Below the pieces are notes generated by a model. That model was given only the letters and a program-made list of their open reading frames with translations. It was not told the origin of the DNA and searched no databases. The position numbers were made by a program, and so were the translations under genes. 19,260 nucleotides of DNA, from the NCBI GenBank assembly GCA_902767145.1, contig CACXGG010000040.1, forward strand, positions 1 to 19,260, in the 5' to 3' direction. Below are positions 2,133-17,709 of this stretch, one piece after another (position 1 is the first letter of the stretch; each line of letters opens with the position of its first letter). The stretch is from Oscillospiraceae bacterium (GTDB lineage Bacteria; Bacillota; Clostridia; Saccharofermentanales; Saccharofermentanaceae).

Positions 2133-2136
2133 ATAT

Positions 2137-2286
2137 TCGAATCCAAGGCGGGGCGTAATTCCCCGACCGGCGGTGTTCTCTGTCTGATAGGACAGGGTAA
2201 GCCCGCAACTCCCGTCAAATCTTTAAGGCGGGACTGACACGGTAAGATCCCGTGGCCGACGGTACAGTCCGGATGGAAGGAGTCGA
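2137..2286 (+). ncRNA. FMN riboswitch (RFN element)
   Basis: The stretch carries the RFN conserved blocks in order: AGGCGGGGCGTAATTCCCC near 2145-2163, ACCGGCGGT, AGCCCGC near 2201, and GCCGACGGTACAGTCCGGAT at 2254-2273. FMN binds this RNA and lowers expression of riboflavin genes. P1 pairs 2137-2144 (TCGAATCC) with 2279-2286 (GGAGTCGA), with 7 of 8 pairs. The 3' strand of P1 contains the GGAG of the ribU SD (GGAAGGAG, 2275-2282), so ligand-stabilised P1 would hide the ribosome binding site. Seven T residues follow P1 directly, just before the ATG. The downstream ribU gene fits the switch. Confidence 0.95.
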
Positions 2287-2293
2287 TTTTTTT

Positions 2294-10264: not shown

Positions 10265-10316
10265 TAGTTTTCAATAAGTTGTAAACAAAATGTGAACTTG
10301 TGTCACAAAAAAAGTG

Positions 10317-10345
10317 TTGACAATTACACTGCCCTTGATTATCCT
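10317..10345 (+). promoter_or_regulatory. Promoter of the T-box leader
   Basis: A perfect -35 TTGACA (10317-10322) is followed by a 17-nt spacer and TATCCT (10340-10345). The predicted start is near 10352, about 10 nt before the T-box Stem I. An 11-nt palindrome TTGTGTCACAA (10298-10308) lies just upstream and could be an operator. Confidence 0.65.
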
Positions 10346-10361
10346 TACAGTGTTTCATAGA

Positions 10362-10627
10362 GTAAAGGCTGTGACGAAGACGGTCTGACGATCAAAGTTT
10401 ACAGAGAGCCGGGATGGGCTGGGAACCCGGTAACAGAGATCCTCAAACGACCTATCACTTCTGAGCCGGTACACCGAAAGCATCAGCAAGTAGACTGTAC
10501 CCGAAGGCCGCCGCGTTAAGGCAAGGGGTTTGTTAGAATCCAAAAGTGGTATTCCGTTAAGGGAATGCAAGTTGAGTGGTACCGCGGATATTTCCGTCTC
10601 AAGCAAAGGTTGCTTGGGGCGTTTTTT
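10362..10627 (+). ncRNA. T-box riboswitch, specifier read as AUC (tRNA-Ile)
   Basis: This leader senses tRNA charging. Stem I is built from GGCT/AGCC (10367-10370 with 10464-10467), a K-turn (GTGAC against TG), GAAG/CTTC (10376-10379 with 10458-10461) and GGTC/GACC (10382-10385 with 10449-10452), up to the conserved AGAGAG region at 10403-10408 and the apical stem CCGGG/CCCGG. The specifier loop 3' side is TATCA (10453-10457). The codon followed by unpaired A is ATC, isoleucine. Stem II starts with GGTACA/TGTACC (10468-10473 with 10496-10501). The antiterminator pairs TTGAG/CTCAA (10572-10576 with 10598-10602) and GCGGA/TCCGT around the 7-nt bulge TGGTACC (10577-10583). The bulge UGGU fits an ACCA tRNA end (discriminator A). 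It excludes the terminator at 10595-10627. Confidence 0.93.
10595..10627 (+). terminator. T-box-controlled intrinsic terminator
   Basis: A 12-bp stem (10595-10606 with 10610-10621, including G-U pairs) with a 3-nt loop is followed by six T residues. Its 5' strand overlaps the 3' strands of the antiterminator, as expected for a transcriptional T-box. Confidence 0.9.
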
Positions 10628-10684
10628 ATTTCCGGAAAAACACCTGAAGCTTTTGGACTGCAAGTACAGAAAAGGAGATTAAAG

Positions 10685-13036
10685 ATGGCAGACCTTAAGG
10701 ACAACACAAACATGGATATCAAGATCGCTGAAGTCGCAGGACGTGTAAAAGGTATACGTCTCGACCTGAACCTCACCACTGAGCAGATGGCTCAGAGGAT
10801 CGGTATATCCGAGGAAGAGTACATCAAGTACGAGAGCGGAGAGTCAGACTTCAACTTTACATTCGTATATAAGATGGCAAATGTTGCCGGCATCGATATC
10901 GCCGACCTCATGGAAGGATCTTCCCCTTCCCTTACAACATATGCCGTTACAAGAAACGGAGAGGGACGCCCCATCGCAAGACATGAGGGCTACAAGTACT
11001 TAAGACTCGGTTCCAGGTTCAAGTCAAAGCTGGCTGAGCCCTTCCGTGTAACCATCCCCTATTCCGAGGAGGCTTTAAATCCCCCGTACGAGCTCGTTAC
11101 ACACTCCGGTCAGGAGATGAATATCGTTATCAGCGGAACCCTCAAGGTAATGATCGGTGATGCTGTTGAGATCTTAAATCCCGGCGATTCCATCTTCTTC
11201 GATTCCTCAACTCCCCACGGTGAGTTTGCCCTGGGCGGTGAGGACTGCGAATTCTACGCAATCATCTTAAATCCCGAAGCTTGGTCAAAGGGTGATACTT
11301 ACCGTTCCACCTTCAAGACGGAGATGAAGGCAGACAACGTTACAAATGTCGATCTTGCAAACCTCAAGGACGCTGTCTACGAGACATACTTCAAGAGCGA
11401 GCTGGACGAGAACGGTATCCTTTCCAAGGTAACCTTCGACGAGGAGAAAGTTAAAGACTTCAACTTTGCATACGACTGCGTTGACGTTATCGCAAAGAAG
11501 AATCCTGATAAGACTGCAATGATGTGGGTGTCCAAGGATGGTGTCACAGACCACAGGTTCACCTTCGAGGAGATGAGAAAGTACTCCAACAAGACAGCAA
11601 ATTACTTCAAGAGCCTTGGCATCAAGAAGGGCGACAAGGTAATGCTCGTCCTTAAGAGACACTATCAGTTCTGGTTCTCCATGCTGGCACTCCACAGGAT
11701 CGGTGCTGTTGCAATCCCTGCAACCAACCTTCTTAGAGAGCACGACTTCGAGTACAGATATAAGGCTGCCGGCGTTAAGGGCATCATCTGCACAGCTGAT
11801 GGCGACACTGCTGACGAGGCTCTCAAGGCTGCCAAGGGCGTAGAAGGCATGGATGTCTTCGTAATGGTCAACGGATGCCGTGATGGATGGAGAGACTTCA
11901 ACAAGGAGTTCGAGGCCTTCCCTGATGAGTTCGAGAAGCCCGAGGACTATGCAAGAGGAGACGACCCAATGGTCATGTTCTTCTCCTCCGGTACGACAGG
12001 ATATCCCAAGATGGCTATGCATTCATACCGCTACGGCCTCGGACATATAACAACAGCAAAGTACTGGCAGAATGTCGATCCCAACGGTCTTCACTTCACC
12101 ATCTCAGATACAGGCTGGGGTAAGGCTCTCTGGGGTAAGCTCTACGGACAGTGGCTCTGCGAAGCACCCGTATTCACCTTCGACTTCGACAGGTTCCATG
12201 CAGAAGAGATCCTTCCCATGTTCAAGAAGTACGGCATCACCACATTCTGTGCTCCTCCTACGATGTTCAGGTTCCTTATCAAGGAAGACCTTTCCAAATA
12301 CGACCTCACATCCCTTAAGTATGCTGCAGTTGCAGGTGAGGCTCTGAACCCTGAGGTATTCAACCAGTGGATGAAGGCAACAGGTATCAGGCTCATGGAG
12401 GGCTTCGGTCAGACCGAGACCACACTGGCTATCGCCAACCTTGTGGGATCTTCCATCAAGCTTGGTTCCATGGGTAAGCCCAATCCTCTCTACGATGTCC
12501 ACATCCTGGATGAGGACGGAAAGGACTGTAAGCCCGGTGAGACAGGTGAGATCTGCATCAGGACAGCTGACGGAACTCCCAACGGTCTCTACCTCTGCTA
12601 CTACAGAGACGAGCAGAAGACAGCCGAGGCATGGCACGACGGCTTCTATCACACAGGTGATACAGCATGGCAGGATGAGGATGGTTACATCTGGTATGTC
12701 GGCCGTATCGACGACGTCATCAAGTCCTCCGGTTACCGTATCGGACCCTTCGAGATCGAGAGCGTTATCATGGAGCTTCCTTATGTTCTTGAGTGTGCTG
12801 TTACAGGCGCACCTGATCCCCAGGGCGTAAGAGGCATCGTCGTCAAGGCGACCATCGTCCTCGTTCCCGGCAAGGCCGAACCCACAGAGGAACTTAAGAA
12901 GGATGTCCAGAACTACGTTAAGTGGAAGACAGCTCCCTACAAGTATCCCCGTATCGTTGAGTTCGTCGAGGAACTTCCCAAGACCATCAGCGGCAAGATC
13001 AGAAGAACAGAGATCAGGGCCAACGACAACAAGTAA
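10685..13036 (+). CDS. HTH (XRE)-cupin-AMP-forming acyl-CoA synthetase fusion
   Basis: This is a 783-residue three-part protein. Residues about 13-76 form an XRE-type helix-turn-helix (LTTEQMAQRIGISEEEYIKY). Residues 117-196 form a cupin_2 barrel (HSGQEMNIVISGTL, NPGDSIFFDSSTPHG). Residues about 255-783 are an AMP-binding synthetase with SSGTTGYPK (434-442), GFGQTET (573-579), HTGD (656-659), GRIDDVIKSSGYRIGPFEIE (673-692) and the catalytic Lys771 in SGKIRR. It should turn a carboxylic acid, ATP and CoA into acyl-CoA, AMP and PPi; the core resembles medium-chain/branched acyl-CoA synthetases. ATG 10685 has AAGGAG 7 nt upstream. An in-frame extension to 10565 runs into the T-box terminator and is rejected. 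Control by an Ile-type T-box suggests a branched substrate such as 2-methylbutyrate (inference). A terminator follows at 13046. Confidence 0.92.
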   Translation: MADLKDNTNMDIKIAEVAGRVKGIRLDLNLTTEQMAQRIGISEEEYIKYESGESDFNFTFVYKMANVAGIDIADLMEGSSPSLTTYAVTRNGEGRPIARHEGYKYLRLGSRFKSKLAEPFRVTIPYSEEALNPPYELVTHSGQEMNIVISGTLKVMIGDAVEILNPGDSIFFDSSTPHGEFALGGEDCEFYAIILNPEAWSKGDTYRSTFKTEMKADNVTNVDLANLKDAVYETYFKSELDENGILSKVTFDEEKVKDFNFAYDCVDVIAKKNPDKTAMMWVSKDGVTDHRFTFEEMRKYSNKTANYFKSLGIKKGDKVMLVLKRHYQFWFSMLALHRIGAVAIPATNLLREHDFEYRYKAAGVKGIICTADGDTADEALKAAKGVEGMDVFVMVNGCRDGWRDFNKEFEAFPDEFEKPEDYARGDDPMVMFFSSGTTGYPKMAMHSYRYGLGHITTAKYWQNVDPNGLHFTISDTGWGKALWGKLYGQWLCEAPVFTFDFDRFHAEEILPMFKKYGITTFCAPPTMFRFLIKEDLSKYDLTSLKYAAVAGEALNPEVFNQWMKATGIRLMEGFGQTETTLAIANLVGSSIKLGSMGKPNPLYDVHILDEDGKDCKPGETGEICIRTADGTPNGLYLCYYRDEQKTAEAWHDGFYHTGDTAWQDEDGYIWYVGRIDDVIKSSGYRIGPFEIESVIMELPYVLECAVTGAPDPQGVRGIVVKATIVLVPGKAEPTEELKKDVQNYVKWKTAPYKYPRIVEFVEELPKTISGKIRRTEIRANDNK

Positions 13037-13045
13037 TAGTTCATC

Positions 13046-13078
13046 AAAAAACTGCCGGGTCACACCGGCAGTTTTTTT
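13046..13078 (+). terminator. Terminator of the acyl-CoA synthetase gene
   Basis: The 8-bp GC-rich stem ACTGCCGG/CCGGCAGT (13051-13058 with 13065-13072) has a 6-nt loop. It is extended by A/T pairs and followed by a run of seven T. It starts 10 nt after the stop codon. Confidence 0.93.
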
Positions 13079-13093
13079 GTGCCTGAAAACATA

Positions 13094-13194
13094 TCCGCAC
13101 AATTAACGCACAAAACGTACCCTTTGTGCGGCAGATTGTGTGAAAACACACAATCTGCCACATAAAAACTCATTTAATGAGGAAAATGTGCGGA
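13094..13194. repeat. Cloverleaf-like palindromic element of unknown function
   Basis: This noncoding stretch of about 101 nt, between two terminators, can fold into a four-way junction. The outer stem is 13094-13104 with 13184-13194 (10 of 11 pairs). Hairpin A is CGCACAAA/TTTGTGCG (13107-13114 with 13123-13130). Hairpin B is a perfect 13-bp stem (13130-13142 with 13147-13159) with an AAAA loop. Hairpin C is CTCAT/ATGAG (13169-13173 with 13177-13181). The hexamer CGCACA or its complement occurs four times. It could be a structured RNA, a MITE-like or REP-like element, or a protein-binding DNA site. No flanking target duplication is seen, and I do not recognise a family. Confidence 0.6.
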
Positions 13195-13266: not shown

Positions 13267-13785
13267 TTAGGGCTTGGGGAATCCGAGCTCAGAAAGGAGA
13301 TCATCGATGGACTCTTTCTTGGCATCCTTTGAGCTTGTCGTGTAGATATAGACTACCATATCACCTGCATAGTAGAAACCACCGTAGATATCATCATCGA
13401 GCCAGTGCTTTGTATCAGCTTCACCGTTAAGAGTGATATAACCGTATGTATCTGTGAATACAGCCTTTGACTTACCGGAAAAATCCTTATCGTCCATCAT
13501 ATCCTGATACTCGTCATACAGATCCTCAAAACGATCATATGCGTCGTCTTCATCCTCATAGATATAGAAGTCGACCATGATATTGCTGTCACTGTACCAG
13601 ATATTTTCATCATCTCCGTCGTCCCAGTCATAATACTCGTCATCATCGATATCGAGGGATTCCTCAAGTGCCTTCTTAAAATCCTTGGCCTTGACGGGCT
13701 CGATCTTCCTGCCGCATGCTGCAAGAGGAAGTACTACTGAAGTAGCGAGTATAACAGACATGATCTTCTTAACTGTCTTGTTCAT
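13267..13785 (-). CDS. Small acidic lipoprotein, distant paralogue of 16274 and 17044
   Basis: The function is unknown. The 172-residue product has a lysine-rich n-region, a hydrophobic core and lipobox LAAC (Cys24), so it should be lipid-anchored outside the membrane. The mature part is rich in Asp, Glu and Tyr, for example around residues 46-62 and 78-99. It shares a layout with the two lipoproteins at 16274 and 17044: an acidic first third, a DDAYDRFEDLYDEY-like helix, a small beta strand region (GGFYYAGDMVVYIY) and a final helix KKESIDDLLSELG. Similarity is clear in order but weak in identity. The start at 13785 has GGAG and GAGG within the preceding 15 nt. Its own promoter lies at 13824-13852 and its terminator at 13213-13249, so it looks monocistronic. 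Confidence 0.8.
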   Translation of the reverse strand: MNKTVKKIMSVILATSVVLPLAACGRKIEPVKAKDFKKALEESLDIDDDEYYDWDDGDDENIWYSDSNIMVDFYIYEDEDDAYDRFEDLYDEYQDMMDDKDFSGKSKAVFTDTYGYITLNGEADTKHWLDDDIYGGFYYAGDMVVYIYTTSSKDAKKESIDDLLSELGFPKP

Positions 13786-14806: not shown

Positions 14807-15235
14807 TCACTCCTTTTCGGGAAGATACTGACGGAGCTTTTTGTCGAGGTCCGGTCGGGCACGAACAATAGACTGAATCTTACCATTCGCATCGATAAAG
14901 CAATGTTCGCTATGCCCGACGCATCTCACCTCTGATGTAACTTTATCACGTACCTCGTACTCGATATAGAGGCGAACTCCGGTATATTTGGTGAATTTCA
15001 GGTGCAAAACTACGGTATCGTAGAATTTGGCCATAGTCTTGAACTGAGCCTCAACGGCCGTAACAGGGCTTATTATCCCTGCCTCTTCCATCTCCTTATA
15101 ACCCATTCCGATCCTGTCGAAAACAGATATCCTGGCCTCCTCAAACCATCTTATATAGTTTGAGTGATGTACCACGCCCATCTGGTCAGTCTCATAGTAC
15201 TGTACCAGGTGCTCATATTCCGGCAACTCAGTCAT
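14807..15235 (-). CDS. YbgC/4-hydroxybenzoyl-CoA-type acyl-CoA thioesterase
   Basis: This is a 142-residue hotdog-fold thioesterase predicted to cleave acyl-CoA in the cytoplasm. The signature YYETDQMGVVHHSNYIRWFE (13-32) includes the catalytic Asp17 and the His23/His24 pair typical of YbgC and 4-hydroxybenzoyl-CoA thioesterases. The ATG at 15235 is supported by AGGAGG about 6 nt upstream, within the 3' end of the hydrolase gene. The gene overlaps that hydrolase by 8 nt and is followed by trxB after 5 nt, so it is the middle gene of a tight operon. The acyl substrate is not evident; short-chain or branched acyl-CoA would be usual for the family. Confidence 0.9.
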   Translation of the reverse strand: MTELPEYEHLVQYYETDQMGVVHHSNYIRWFEEARISVFDRIGMGYKEMEEAGIISPVTAVEAQFKTMAKFYDTVVLHLKFTKYTGVRLYIEYEVRDKVTSEVRCVGHSEHCFIDANGKIQSIVRARPDLDKKLRQYLPEKE

Positions 15236-16196
15236 TCTTTCCTCCTGTCTTCTCATCCGCGAACCGGATGATGTCCTCAAAGTATTTATATCTCACAGGC
15301 TCGTTCTGGATCTCATGCCTGTAATGTCCATAGTTGATAGCGGTCACGTCCCTCCCTGTAGCCGCGATGATATCGGCAACAGACCGGGCACCCTTGCCAT
15401 AGCCGGCGACCGGGTCATCCTCTCCATATGTTATAAGTACCGGGGCAAAAGATGCATCCATATATGCATTTTTGCCCTGCATCCTGTCTATCAGTGTAAA
15501 CAGGTCATTAAAACCCTTGCAGGTAAAGAGGAAGCCTGCAAGAGGGTCCTCACAGTACTTGATCACTTCTGTCTCCTCAGAACTGACCCAGTCAAAATCA
15601 GTCCTGGGATGTTCGATCCTCTTGTTATAGGCTCCGAATGCGATCCTGTTCAGCAGCTTTCCGGGCTTTCTCTTCATTCCGAAGACACCGAAGGCACCTG
15701 AAAGGGTGAGGCCAAGCTTGACCAGCGGTTCTCTTCCCATGGTGGAAGCGAAGACAAAGGCGTCAAACTCCTTTGCCCATGAAGAAGTGATGTAGATATT
15801 CCTGACGACAAAGGATCCCATGCTGTGACCGTACAGCACCATGGGAAGCCTCTTATCCGGACAGAACCTCTCCACCGCCCGGAAATGCATATTCATGATG
15901 TCCTTCAGGATACATTCAGCAGAGTCAGAAGTTCCTCCGAAAAAACCAAGGGGCATATCACGATCCCGGTTTAGTTCATATGTCTTTCCATGACCCAGCA
16001 TATCCATTCCACAGACATGCCATCCGTTTCTGTTGAAGAAATCGGTCATCTCTTCGTATCTGAAGAAATAATCCGCCATTCCGTGACAGATCTGGATAAC
16101 GCCTTTAGGGGAAGGATCAGAGGTTTCGGAAAAGAAACCTGCGATCTTATTACCACCGCCAACAGAGGCGTCAAACGTAATGATTTCAGCGTTCAT
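15228..16196 (-). CDS. Alpha/beta hydrolase, monoacylglycerol-lipase-like (Hydrolase_4 / S33)
   Basis: This is a 322-residue serine hydrolase, probably a lysophospholipase or monoacylglycerol lipase. The oxyanion segment CHGMADYFFRY starts at residue 37. The nucleophile elbow GHSMG (123-127) gives Ser125. Asp261 (YGEDDPV) and His294 (YRHEIQNE) complete the triad. The start is ATG 16196, with AAGGGG 10 nt upstream. An in-frame ATG at 16250 lies upstream of the predicted transcription start (-10 at 16233-16238), so it cannot be used from this promoter. It is the first gene of the operon with the thioesterase and trxB, and is divergent from a lipoprotein gene through a shared promoter. The combination suggests lipid or acyl turnover (inference). 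Confidence 0.88.
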   Translation of the reverse strand: MNAEIITFDASVGGGNKIAGFFSETSDPSPKGVIQICHGMADYFFRYEEMTDFFNRNGWHVCGMDMLGHGKTYELNRDRDMPLGFFGGTSDSAECILKDIMNMHFRAVERFCPDKRLPMVLYGHSMGSFVVRNIYITSSWAKEFDAFVFASTMGREPLVKLGLTLSGAFGVFGMKRKPGKLLNRIAFGAYNKRIEHPRTDFDWVSSEETEVIKYCEDPLAGFLFTCKGFNDLFTLIDRMQGKNAYMDASFAPVLITYGEDDPVAGYGKGARSVADIIAATGRDVTAINYGHYRHEIQNEPVRYKYFEDIIRFADEKTGGKND

Positions 16197-16273: not shown

Positions 16274-16951
16274 ATGAAGAAGATCAAGACAATAATCGCT
16301 GGAACACTTATTGCTTCCATGCTCTTTTCTGCTACAGCATGTTCCCTTGGCGGAGCCAAGTTCGGTCCTTCCAAGCTTGCAGCTTATGCAAAGGATCAGG
16401 GAGCTGAGCTCTATGAAGATTCAGACGACTGGGAAGATGATCTGGATGATCTCTATAGTGATTTCAAGATCGTTAAGGACGGTATCTATGTTCACGTAAA
16501 GGGTGATGATGTTAAGGATTTCCTTAAGGGACCCTCTGTAACATCAGAATTCTATGACAAGACAGTCAAGGATGCTACCGTTTATATCATCGGAAAGCAG
16601 AAGGATGACAGTTCTAATCTTGCTGTTGCAGCTGCTCTTACATTCGAGACCAAGGACGATGCTCTCGACTTCTATGAAGATGGAGCAGACGGAATGGAAG
16701 ACAACTACAAGGACGACAAGGACTACAGCTGGTACGATGTAGATTTCGATACTTTCGAGGAAGGCAACACTCAGTATGCTCTCTTCTTCGAGGAGGATAC
16801 AGACTGGGGCGATACAACTGTTGGTGGTATCTACCTTCAGGGCAACACAGTATTCTTCATTATGGGTTACGGTTCAAGCAAGAAGGACGTCAATAGTTAT
16901 GTAGATGATATCTGCGAGGGCGTAGGCGTTGTAGCTCCCAGCGAACTCTGA
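16274..16951 (+). CDS. Acidic lipoprotein, first copy of a tandem pair
   Basis: The function is unknown. The product has 225 residues, a signal peptide and a weak lipobox ATAC (Cys23), then the LGGAKFGPSKLAAY block (25-38). The mature part is strongly acidic. Recognisable blocks shared with the gene at 17044 are KLAAYxKDxGAELYED, FETKDDAxDFYED, YDVDFDTFEEGN and a C-terminal GVVAPSEL. No enzymatic motif is seen. A strong AAGGAGGT SD stands 5 nt before the ATG, and the promoter is the symmetric element at 16226-16241. A terminator follows at 16971. The DNA match with the second copy is high around the FDTFEEGN and C-terminal blocks, pointing to a fairly recent duplication or gene conversion. 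A surface role such as a cation- or peptide-binding protein is possible but not shown. Confidence 0.85.
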   Translation: MKKIKTIIAGTLIASMLFSATACSLGGAKFGPSKLAAYAKDQGAELYEDSDDWEDDLDDLYSDFKIVKDGIYVHVKGDDVKDFLKGPSVTSEFYDKTVKDATVYIIGKQKDDSSNLAVAAALTFETKDDALDFYEDGADGMEDNYKDDKDYSWYDVDFDTFEEGNTQYALFFEEDTDWGDTTVGGIYLQGNTVFFIMGYGSSKKDVNSYVDDICEGVGVVAPSEL

Positions 16952-16970
16952 TAAGTGAACAACCAATAAC

Positions 16971-17001
16971 AAAAAAGCTGTCCGCAAGGGCAGCTTTTTT
17001 T
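16971..17001 (+). terminator. Terminator between the two lipoprotein genes
   Basis: A 13-bp stem (16971-16983 with 16988-17000, one G-U) is capped by a GCAA tetraloop, with the T-run formed by the 3' arm. The promoter of the next gene begins within 10 nt. Confidence 0.9.
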
Positions 17002-17007
17002 ATGCCA

Positions 17008-17016
17008 TGGTATAAT
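17008..17016 (+). promoter_or_regulatory. Extended -10 promoter of the second lipoprotein gene
   Basis: TGGTATAAT starts 7 nt after the terminator T-run. No usable -35 is seen, since that position falls in the terminator. The start would be near 17023, with a leader of about 20 nt holding GGAGGTGG (17031-17038). Confidence 0.7.
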
Positions 17017-17043
17017 CAATCTATCAAACCGGAGGTGGAACAT

Positions 17044-17709
17044 ATGAAGAAAAAAGCAATTGCACTTTTACTTACAGCATCCATGGCACTTTCTCTTGCC
17101 GGCTGCTCCCTGGGTGGCAGTAAGATAGGCCCGAAGAAGCTGGCCGCTTATGGTAAGGATTCAGGAGCAGAGCTTTACGAAGATGCCGATGAATGGGAAG
17201 AAGATATGGAAGATATTGCCAAAGATTCCGACTGGGCCAGCCTTGATGACGGCGTTTATATAAATGCCCGGGATAAAGATATCAAATCCGTATTCAGTAC
17301 TTTTGAGATGGACGGACTAAAATTCTACGACAAGTCCATGTCCGAGGCAACAACTTATTTTATGGCCGAAGAGAAGAACGATAAGCGTGTGACGGTCATA
17401 GCATGTTCCTATGTCTTCGAGACAAAGGACGATGCTGCAGATTTCTACGAAGACTGGGTTGATAACCTTGAAAGCCAGTATAAGAGCGACAAGGAATACT
17501 ACGATGTAGATTTCGATACCTTCGAAGAAGGAAATATGGAATATGCCCTTTTCGCTGAAGACAGCTTTACCAGCTTCTCAACGGGCATCTACATGGACGG
17601 AAAGACAGTCCTTCTTGTTTTCGGCGCAGGAAGCGAATTAAAGACCATCAACAAAAACATTGACGACGTCTGCGATGCAATGGGCGTTGTAGCTCCCAGC
17701 GATCTTTGA
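17044..17709 (+). CDS. Acidic lipoprotein, second copy of a tandem pair
   Basis: The function is unknown. The product has 221 residues with a clear lipobox LAGC (Cys21), followed by SLGGSKIGPKKLAAY, nearly the same as the first copy. It keeps the shared blocks FETKDDAADFYEDW, YDVDFDTFEEGN and GVVAPSDL, while the central part differs. ATG 17044 is chosen because GGAGGTGG lies 5 nt upstream and the promoter -10 (17011-17016) sits beyond an in-frame upstream ATG at 17002. It has its own promoter, so the pair is independently transcribed despite being adjacent. It ends against a REP-like palindrome that separates it from the converging glycosyltransferase gene. Confidence 0.87.
   Translation: MKKKAIALLLTASMALSLAGCSLGGSKIGPKKLAAYGKDSGAELYEDADEWEEDMEDIAKDSDWASLDDGVYINARDKDIKSVFSTFEMDGLKFYDKSMSEATTYFMAEEKNDKRVTVIACSYVFETKDDAADFYEDWVDNLESQYKSDKEYYDVDFDTFEEGNMEYALFAEDSFTSFSTGIYMDGKTVLLVFGAGSELKTINKNIDDVCDAMGVVAPSDL

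Follow-up and report, generated by a model that had tools for sequence, protein, structure and literature searches.

An isoleucine T-box ahead of a fused HTH-cupin-acyl-CoA synthetase gene, a probable switch for 2-methylbutyrate capture in a member of the Saccharofermentanaceae and its relatives

We analysed a window of 19,260 nucleotides (the whole stretch at positions 1 to 19,260 of contig CACXGG010000040.1, assembly GCA_902767145.1, from an Oscillospiraceae bacterium of the Saccharofermentanaceae), in which a T-box leader RNA (10362..10604, + strand) with an isoleucine specifier precedes a gene (10685..13036, +) for a 783-residue acyl-CoA synthetase of the medium-chain (MACS) type that is fused to helix-turn-helix (HTH) and cupin domains. 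Judged from these features and from related loci, the isoleucine T-box very probably controls a synthetase that captures 2-methylbutyrate toward isoleucine, with sister enzymes standing under valine or leucine T-boxes. A tRNA-Ile switch for 2-methylbutyrate salvage had been put forward in a preliminary description of this DNA, and the Ile specifier, the kinship of the synthetase with the solved structure 3etc, the pathway partners in the same genome and an operon in relatives lend support to that idea.

Control would be exerted by transcription attenuation, in which uncharged tRNA-Ile would pair with the leader at two sites, the AUC of Stem I and the UGGU of the antiterminator, resulting in readthrough. 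The synthetase would activate 2-methylbutyrate from the surroundings with ATP and CoA, Vor, or perhaps Ior, would carboxylate 2-methylbutyryl-CoA to 3-methyl-2-oxopentanoate, and IlvE would aminate this 2-oxoacid to isoleucine. The paralogues under Val or Leu T-boxes would act on isobutyrate, with 2-oxoisovalerate leading to valine and, via LeuA, to leucine. We infer the substrate, the direction of flux and the regulatory response, the flux toward the amino acid following from T-box logic and from the gene linkage in relatives.

Results

The leader RNA and its specifier

The T-box, the specifiers, the domain make-up, the linkage in relatives and the presence or absence of pathway genes are all read off the sequence. 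A covariance-model search (RF00230) confirmed the T-box claimed earlier, placing it at 10362-10604 with 83.5 bits and an E value of 9.5e-19. Since this score lies below the Rfam gathering score of 93 bits, as do those of the T-boxes before thrS (85.6 bits) and trpE (82.8 bits) in the same genome, the T-box had no entry in the gathering-score scan of the window, which returned an FMN riboswitch as its sole entry. The Rfam alignment puts AUC (isoleucine) at 10454..10456 (+) in the specifier loop, followed by A and six bases before GAGC, in agreement with the preliminary reading. UAU, named at that time as a codon that would overturn the proposal, and CUA were both rejected as specifiers, as the alignment favours AUC and in several relatives (e.g., L039, L041, L045, and L046) C replaces the base before an unchanged ATC. 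AUC was likewise the specifier in all 30 same-genus loci examined, a count that includes the window's own locus and several genomes that are also among the main relative loci.

Stem I carries, besides the specifier loop, an AGAGAG motif at 10403..10408 (+), seen in the sequence and in the Rfam alignment; folded in isolation, the Stem I half (10362-10488) is no more stable than shuffled sequences (z 0.35), and the assignment of Stem I thus rests on the covariance model. The antiterminator with the T-box sequence lies at 10572..10603 (+) according to the Rfam alignment and to folding (z -3.4 for a stretch of 55 bases) and holds the bulge UGGU (TGGT in the DNA) at 10577-10580 (+), where it had been expected to fit a discriminator A and is indeed predicted to pair with ACCA. 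An intrinsic terminator (-16.6 kcal/mol, z -4.9) follows at 10595..10627 (+), with a stem of 12 pairs, a loop of 3 and a T run; its 5' arm shares bases with the antiterminator, with which it competes.

Upstream, a promoter (TTGACA-17-TATCCT, 10317..10345, +) matches the hexamers at 10 of 12 positions, and both hexamers are largely kept in six aligned loci; the region holds five promoter-like sites compared to a mean of 2.7 in shuffles. The earlier gene call stands as an acyl-CoA synthetase, but its start is most likely the ATG at 10685 behind a ribosome binding site AGGAG (10673..10677, +, read from the sequence) and not 10565, and the HTH and cupin domains had been overlooked. Behind the gene, a likely gene-end hairpin (CTGCCGG...CCGGCAG with a T run, 13052..13078, +), read from the sequence and not listed by the terminator scan, indicates that the synthetase gene of the window probably stands alone.

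The fused synthetase

Four Pfam domains were found on the + strand: HTH_3 at residues 24-75 (10754..10909; 32.6 bits, cut-off 23), Cupin_2 at residues 139-193 (11099..11263; 44.5 bits, cut-off 27.2), AMP-binding at residues 270-628 (11492..12568; 219.6 bits, cut-off 29.9), and AMP-binding_C at residues 690-771 (12752..12997; 65.9 bits, cut-off 24.5). In the structure-relative search, the best solved relative was 3etc, which we take to be MacsMa of Methanosarcina acetivorans, with 663.8 bits (next 373.9) over residues 257-781; with its AMP-binding and C-terminal domains and 3etc as the closest relative, the protein is assigned to the MACS type. A passage of PMC10455477 states that MacsMa prefers 2-methylbutyrate, a preference that the preliminary description had named for an archaeal synthetase of related type. 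The best NCBIfam model was MbcS (NF047394), matching residues 271-782 only; membership was rejected, as the score of 429.4 bits compares to an equivalog cut-off of 850. Cupin and AMP-binding domains occurred together in all of the best 120 of 7998 scored proteins. Public names were shown for few related proteins and were generic, 'AMP-binding protein', or 'acetyl-CoA synthetase'.

Specifiers in related loci and residue 479

Of 197 related stretches, the best 80 loci were kept for the survey, in which 113 synthetase copies were counted at an identity of at least 40 per cent. An Ile, Val or Leu T-box was found for 105 of these copies, with 68 AUC, 28 GUA, 2 GUC, and 4 CUG specifiers and 3 copies in which AUC or GUA competes with another candidate codon; five of the eight copies without a T-box lie at contig ends. 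In a first pass, 76 of 78 loci had shown an upstream T-box core, at least one of these matches (L058) being false, and the specifier of L022 and L026 was read as ATC by eye. The spacing rule for the specifier was tested on control T-boxes (36 loci, 31 calls) and, with six synthetase genes as well as L173 and L178 (gene unknown) dropped from the count, yielded the cognate codon in 20 of 23, including AUC before ilvA in the KHP2 genome; GUC was scored as cognate for ilvB, which is common to the three branched-chain amino acids. The rule was wrong for L006, L162, and L179 and gave no call for L003, L158, L167, L169, and L172.

The specifier is matched by residue 479 of the protein (GW-G-K; Gly codon at 12119..12121, +), which is Gly in 3etc and in all 71 Ile copies on the tree; all 42 Val and all 4 Leu copies have Ala. 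The position aligns with the valine of GWVTG in the acetyl-CoA synthetase 9g79, a residue that presumably lines the acyl pocket. Among unfused ligases, residue 479 was Ala in 22 of 24 and Met in two (L134 and L137). Partial copies L056_0, L058_1, and L065_0 were dropped from the tree set, and 22 unfused ligases picked by a motif that requires Ala served as outgroup, leaving out L134 and L137, which makes the 22 of 22 Ala of this outgroup circular. On the rooted tree (quick method, some forks weak) specifier and residue 479 each need three changes; an account of residue 479 by two Gly to Ala changes was rejected, since with the outgroup Ala is the older state and three changes are needed. An independent-pairs test of residue 479 offered two pairs only, a number with which significance is out of reach.

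Isovalerate was considered as the substrate of the Leu-type copies. Because these copies branch among the Val copies and their four genomes have the LeuA-type domain, isobutyrate is the likelier substrate.

No T-box was found in any of 24 stretches with unfused ligase relatives, although in L136, L138, L140, L143, and L145, which cover about 0.9 kb upstream only, a T-box before the preceding HTH-cupin gene could be missed; three fused copies fetched alongside had GUA T-boxes. Most of the unfused ligases (L188-L204, L134-L145) adjoin a separate HTH-cupin gene, and this pair of genes looks like the older arrangement. The manganese riboswitch model (RF00080) gave weak hits below its gathering score at 2514-2657 of L190 and 426-566 of L196.

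Tandem paralogues and the Vor operon

Many loci hold two synthetases, each with its own T-box, AUC before the first and GUA or CUG before the second. In L067, L070, L052, and L076 both leaders are recovered by the covariance model, and the interval from the second synthetase to vor contains no T-box. The second copy in L067 has a one-base overlap with the gene behind it; downstream come a protein of 221 residues without a Pfam match, whose start we regard as P-loop-like, and then ferredoxin, VorB, VorA, and VorC. The same order (P-loop-like protein, ferredoxin, VorB, VorA, VorC, same strand) was found behind 19 of the 21 Val or Leu copies that have no less than 3.4 kb of sequence behind them, and IlvE lies on the same strand behind 17 of the 20 with at least 5 kb; the query for IlvE was an open reading frame chosen by position and confirmed as IlvE by family scan. 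IlvE lies between the synthetase and the P-loop gene in L061 and L062 and was not found in the stretch of L066. Just behind the operon of L076, a further T-box (12897-13175; CUC by Rfam alignment) precedes a LeuA-like gene.

Pathway genes in the genome of the window and in its relatives

The genome of the window (G000) is 78 per cent complete and has six T-boxes, with codons taken from Rfam alignments and genes from a family scan (trpE 3 bits under its cut-off): GUC before ilvB, CUC before leuA, UGG before a trpB-like gene, ACA before thrS, AUC before the synthetase, and UGG before trpE. The search suggested for IOR/VOR genes yielded VorB (549 bits, cut-off 399) with adjoining beta and gamma subunits as well as IorAB (IorA 674 bits, cut-off 650.9), and IlvE, the branched-chain aminotransferase, was also found (387 bits, cut-off 250), so that the same genome holds both a 2-oxoacid:ferredoxin oxidoreductase and an aminotransferase. 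IlvB and LeuA are present, and IlvD (621 bits) is cut at a contig end. Of the 2-oxobutyrate sources, neither threonine deaminase (IlvA) nor citramalate synthase (CimA) was over its cut-off in this genome.

Among the 35 same-genus genomes, that of the window included, CimA was over the cut-off in none, and the weaker matches were mostly of LeuA-like length. IlvD was over the cut-off in nine, with a split match in G010. These ten genomes have exactly one synthetase match each (E 1e-60), whereas of the 25 without IlvD 20 have at least two, four have one and one has none, so that a second match is seen only where IlvD was not found (chance 1.6e-5, kinship not corrected). In two nearly complete genomes, G017 (99 per cent) and G019 (97 per cent), IlvD was found but neither IlvA nor CimA over cut-off; each of them has a single synthetase match, behind an AUC T-box (L098 and L095).

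A wider comparison used 50 genomes from the 80 loci, picked by class (completeness not given), in which IlvD, VorB and the synthetases were counted. IlvD was over the cut-off in all 14 control genomes, compared to 7 of the 50 chosen genomes; in an eighth it was split, and in 42 it was not found. Val or Leu T-box copies occurred in 0 of the 8 genomes with IlvD versus 33 of the 42 without it (chance 4.5e-5, kinship not corrected), and in nine genomes without IlvD the fused second copies located outside the first stretch all had a GUA T-box. VorB was over the cut-off in 45 of the 50 genomes, IlvE in 48 of 51, and the LeuA-dimer domain, which CimA also has, was found in 50 of 51. With IlvD missing while IlvE and the LeuA-type domain are kept, another source of 2-oxoacids is needed; these acids thus appear to come from elsewhere and still to feed transamination and leucine synthesis.

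Other features

The FMN riboswitch of the window (2135-2288, 90.7 bits) precedes the gene of a small membrane protein, by eye probably a riboflavin transporter. Near the synthetase, a gene on the - strand (14807-15280) resembles the YbgC/FadM or MenI acyl-CoA thioesterases, with all scores under cut-offs. Two adjoining similar lipoprotein-like genes (16274-17709, +) and a third one (13267-13785, -) were recognized by eye. The two T-boxes of the control loci L173 and L178 (G087) agree in their CCU-like specifier and in their score, and both precede what is apparently the same reading frame, conceivably part of a mobile or repeated element.

Discussion

Several observations weigh against control of 2-methylbutyrate capture by the isoleucine T-box and of its sister enzymes by Val or Leu T-boxes. 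Nine of the 42 chosen genomes without IlvD also lack a Val or Leu T-box copy, and the simple rule that no IlvD means a Val T-box copy was therefore rejected. In the genus of the window, fused GUA T-box copies were verified in three genomes only (L185-L187 in G013, G021, and G031), that of G031 being the sole match, and nine of the second or sole same-genus matches, among those fetched, are unfused ligases without a T-box (L188-L193, L196-L198). The fused synthetases of L029 and L077 and the first copy of L086 have no T-box, Rfam check included, and neither Vor nor IlvE lies behind the GUC copies of L071 and L084. As the genome of the window is 78 per cent complete, its lack of IlvA and CimA is weak evidence taken alone, IlvA is over the cut-off in 4 of the 35 same-genus genomes, where the synthetase is present too, and other 2-oxobutyrate sources or uptake of isoleucine may also serve these bacteria. 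Finally, Vor was found downstream in none of the 29 Ile-only loci with enough sequence to be evaluated, nor in the window.

This last point, together with a window gene that appears to stand alone, would also fit a synthetase that provides membrane fatty acids with their branched acyl-CoA primers (2-methylbutyryl-CoA for the anteiso type), with the Ile T-box acting as a proxy for a shortage of Ile-derived primers. MbcS of Staphylococcus aureus, the best NCBIfam model for the protein, activates 2-methylbutyrate and isobutyrate for fatty acids according to a passage of PMC10026030. However, the MbcS score is about half of the cut-off (429 versus 850), the paralogues are strung together with Vor and, in most cases, IlvE, neither of which priming needs, and the missing IlvD with IlvE and the LeuA-type domain kept calls for another 2-oxoacid source; we consider a role in priming unlikely. 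It is also conceivable that the synthetase acts on another carboxylic acid and that its branched-chain T-boxes reflect a less direct link, given that ligase specificity is hard to read from sequence and that the few public names are generic or refer to acetyl-CoA synthetase. The codons of all 105 copies with a specifier call (three with a second candidate) are those for Ile, Val or Leu, the tree calls for equally many changes in the specifier and in residue 479, and the paralogues are linked to Vor and IlvE, all of which makes another substrate distinctly improbable. Vor can work in both directions, and peptide fermenters employ it oxidatively, so that synthetase and Vor might ferment branched-chain amino acids to branched acids. 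A T-box, however, raises expression at amino acid shortage, which is the opposite of a catabolic need, and an AMP-forming synthetase spends ATP in the acid-to-CoA direction; hence the oxidative direction is to be regarded as highly improbable.

The fusion to HTH and cupin domains hints at a further level of control beside the T-box. Upstream of the promoter, a dyad TTGTAAACAA (10279..10288, +) is a weak candidate for an operator bound by the HTH domain; its half-sites are kept in five of six aligned loci, with one base differing in L009 and the spacer differing in L011 and L012. The biotin ligase BirA acts as its own transcription regulator and, by analogy, we speculate that the specifier tracks the substrate of each paralogue, while the HTH-cupin part might be a self-regulator reading the acyl-adenylate or acyl-CoA state at the upstream dyad, and that these genes might provide the genetic explanation, missing so far, for why rumen Clostridia require branched acids. 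We offer this two-layer scheme as a tentative and rather doubtful extension.

Passages of PMC7356843 and PMC2812497 report that rumen microbes convert 2-methylbutyrate to isoleucine, isobutyrate to valine and isovalerate to leucine, conversions of branched acids to branched-chain amino acids reported since the 1960s, for which these papers cite Robinson and Allison 1969 and Allison et al. 1962; isoacids also serve as a ruminant feed additive, as stated in PMC12272956. For such use of branched acids, a candidate activating enzyme, an operon with carboxylase and aminotransferase genes and a presumed inducing signal can now be named. The specifier codon moreover predicts a substrate for each paralogue, unlike the names 'AMP-binding protein' or 'acetyl-CoA synthetase', and the occurrence of the same arrangement in gut and rumen relatives singles out genes by which these bacteria may derive isoleucine, valine and leucine from branched acids that they scavenge.

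The leader shares its RNA anatomy with the T-boxes (RF00230) that stand before genes for amino acid biosynthesis, here ilvB, leuA, ilvA, and trpE, and strain KHP2 (G062, locus L011) has an AUC T-box before ilvA as well. A search for the term 'acyl-CoA' in the main text of PMC2494555, PMC3766115, and PMC7778990, three papers on T-boxes, found nothing, and the open-licence literature searched gave no report linking T-boxes to acyl-CoA synthetases or describing the operon; an earlier listing of such a target in T-box databases is conceivable. Compared to known T-box targets, the product here is predicted to activate a scavenged fatty acid. MacsMa, the nearest solved relative, shares Gly at the position of residue 479 and, in the passage of PMC10455477, the preference for 2-methylbutyrate predicted for the window enzyme, but is archaeal and matches the synthetase part only, without an HTH-cupin match. 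MbcS of S. aureus is likewise an AMP-forming synthetase and accepts 2-methylbutyrate and isobutyrate (PMC10026030), but serves fatty acids, and its model is confined to the synthetase part of the protein. Lastly, reductive carboxylation in the rumen is classical as chemistry, whereas the genes, the operon and the tRNA-based control are proposed here.

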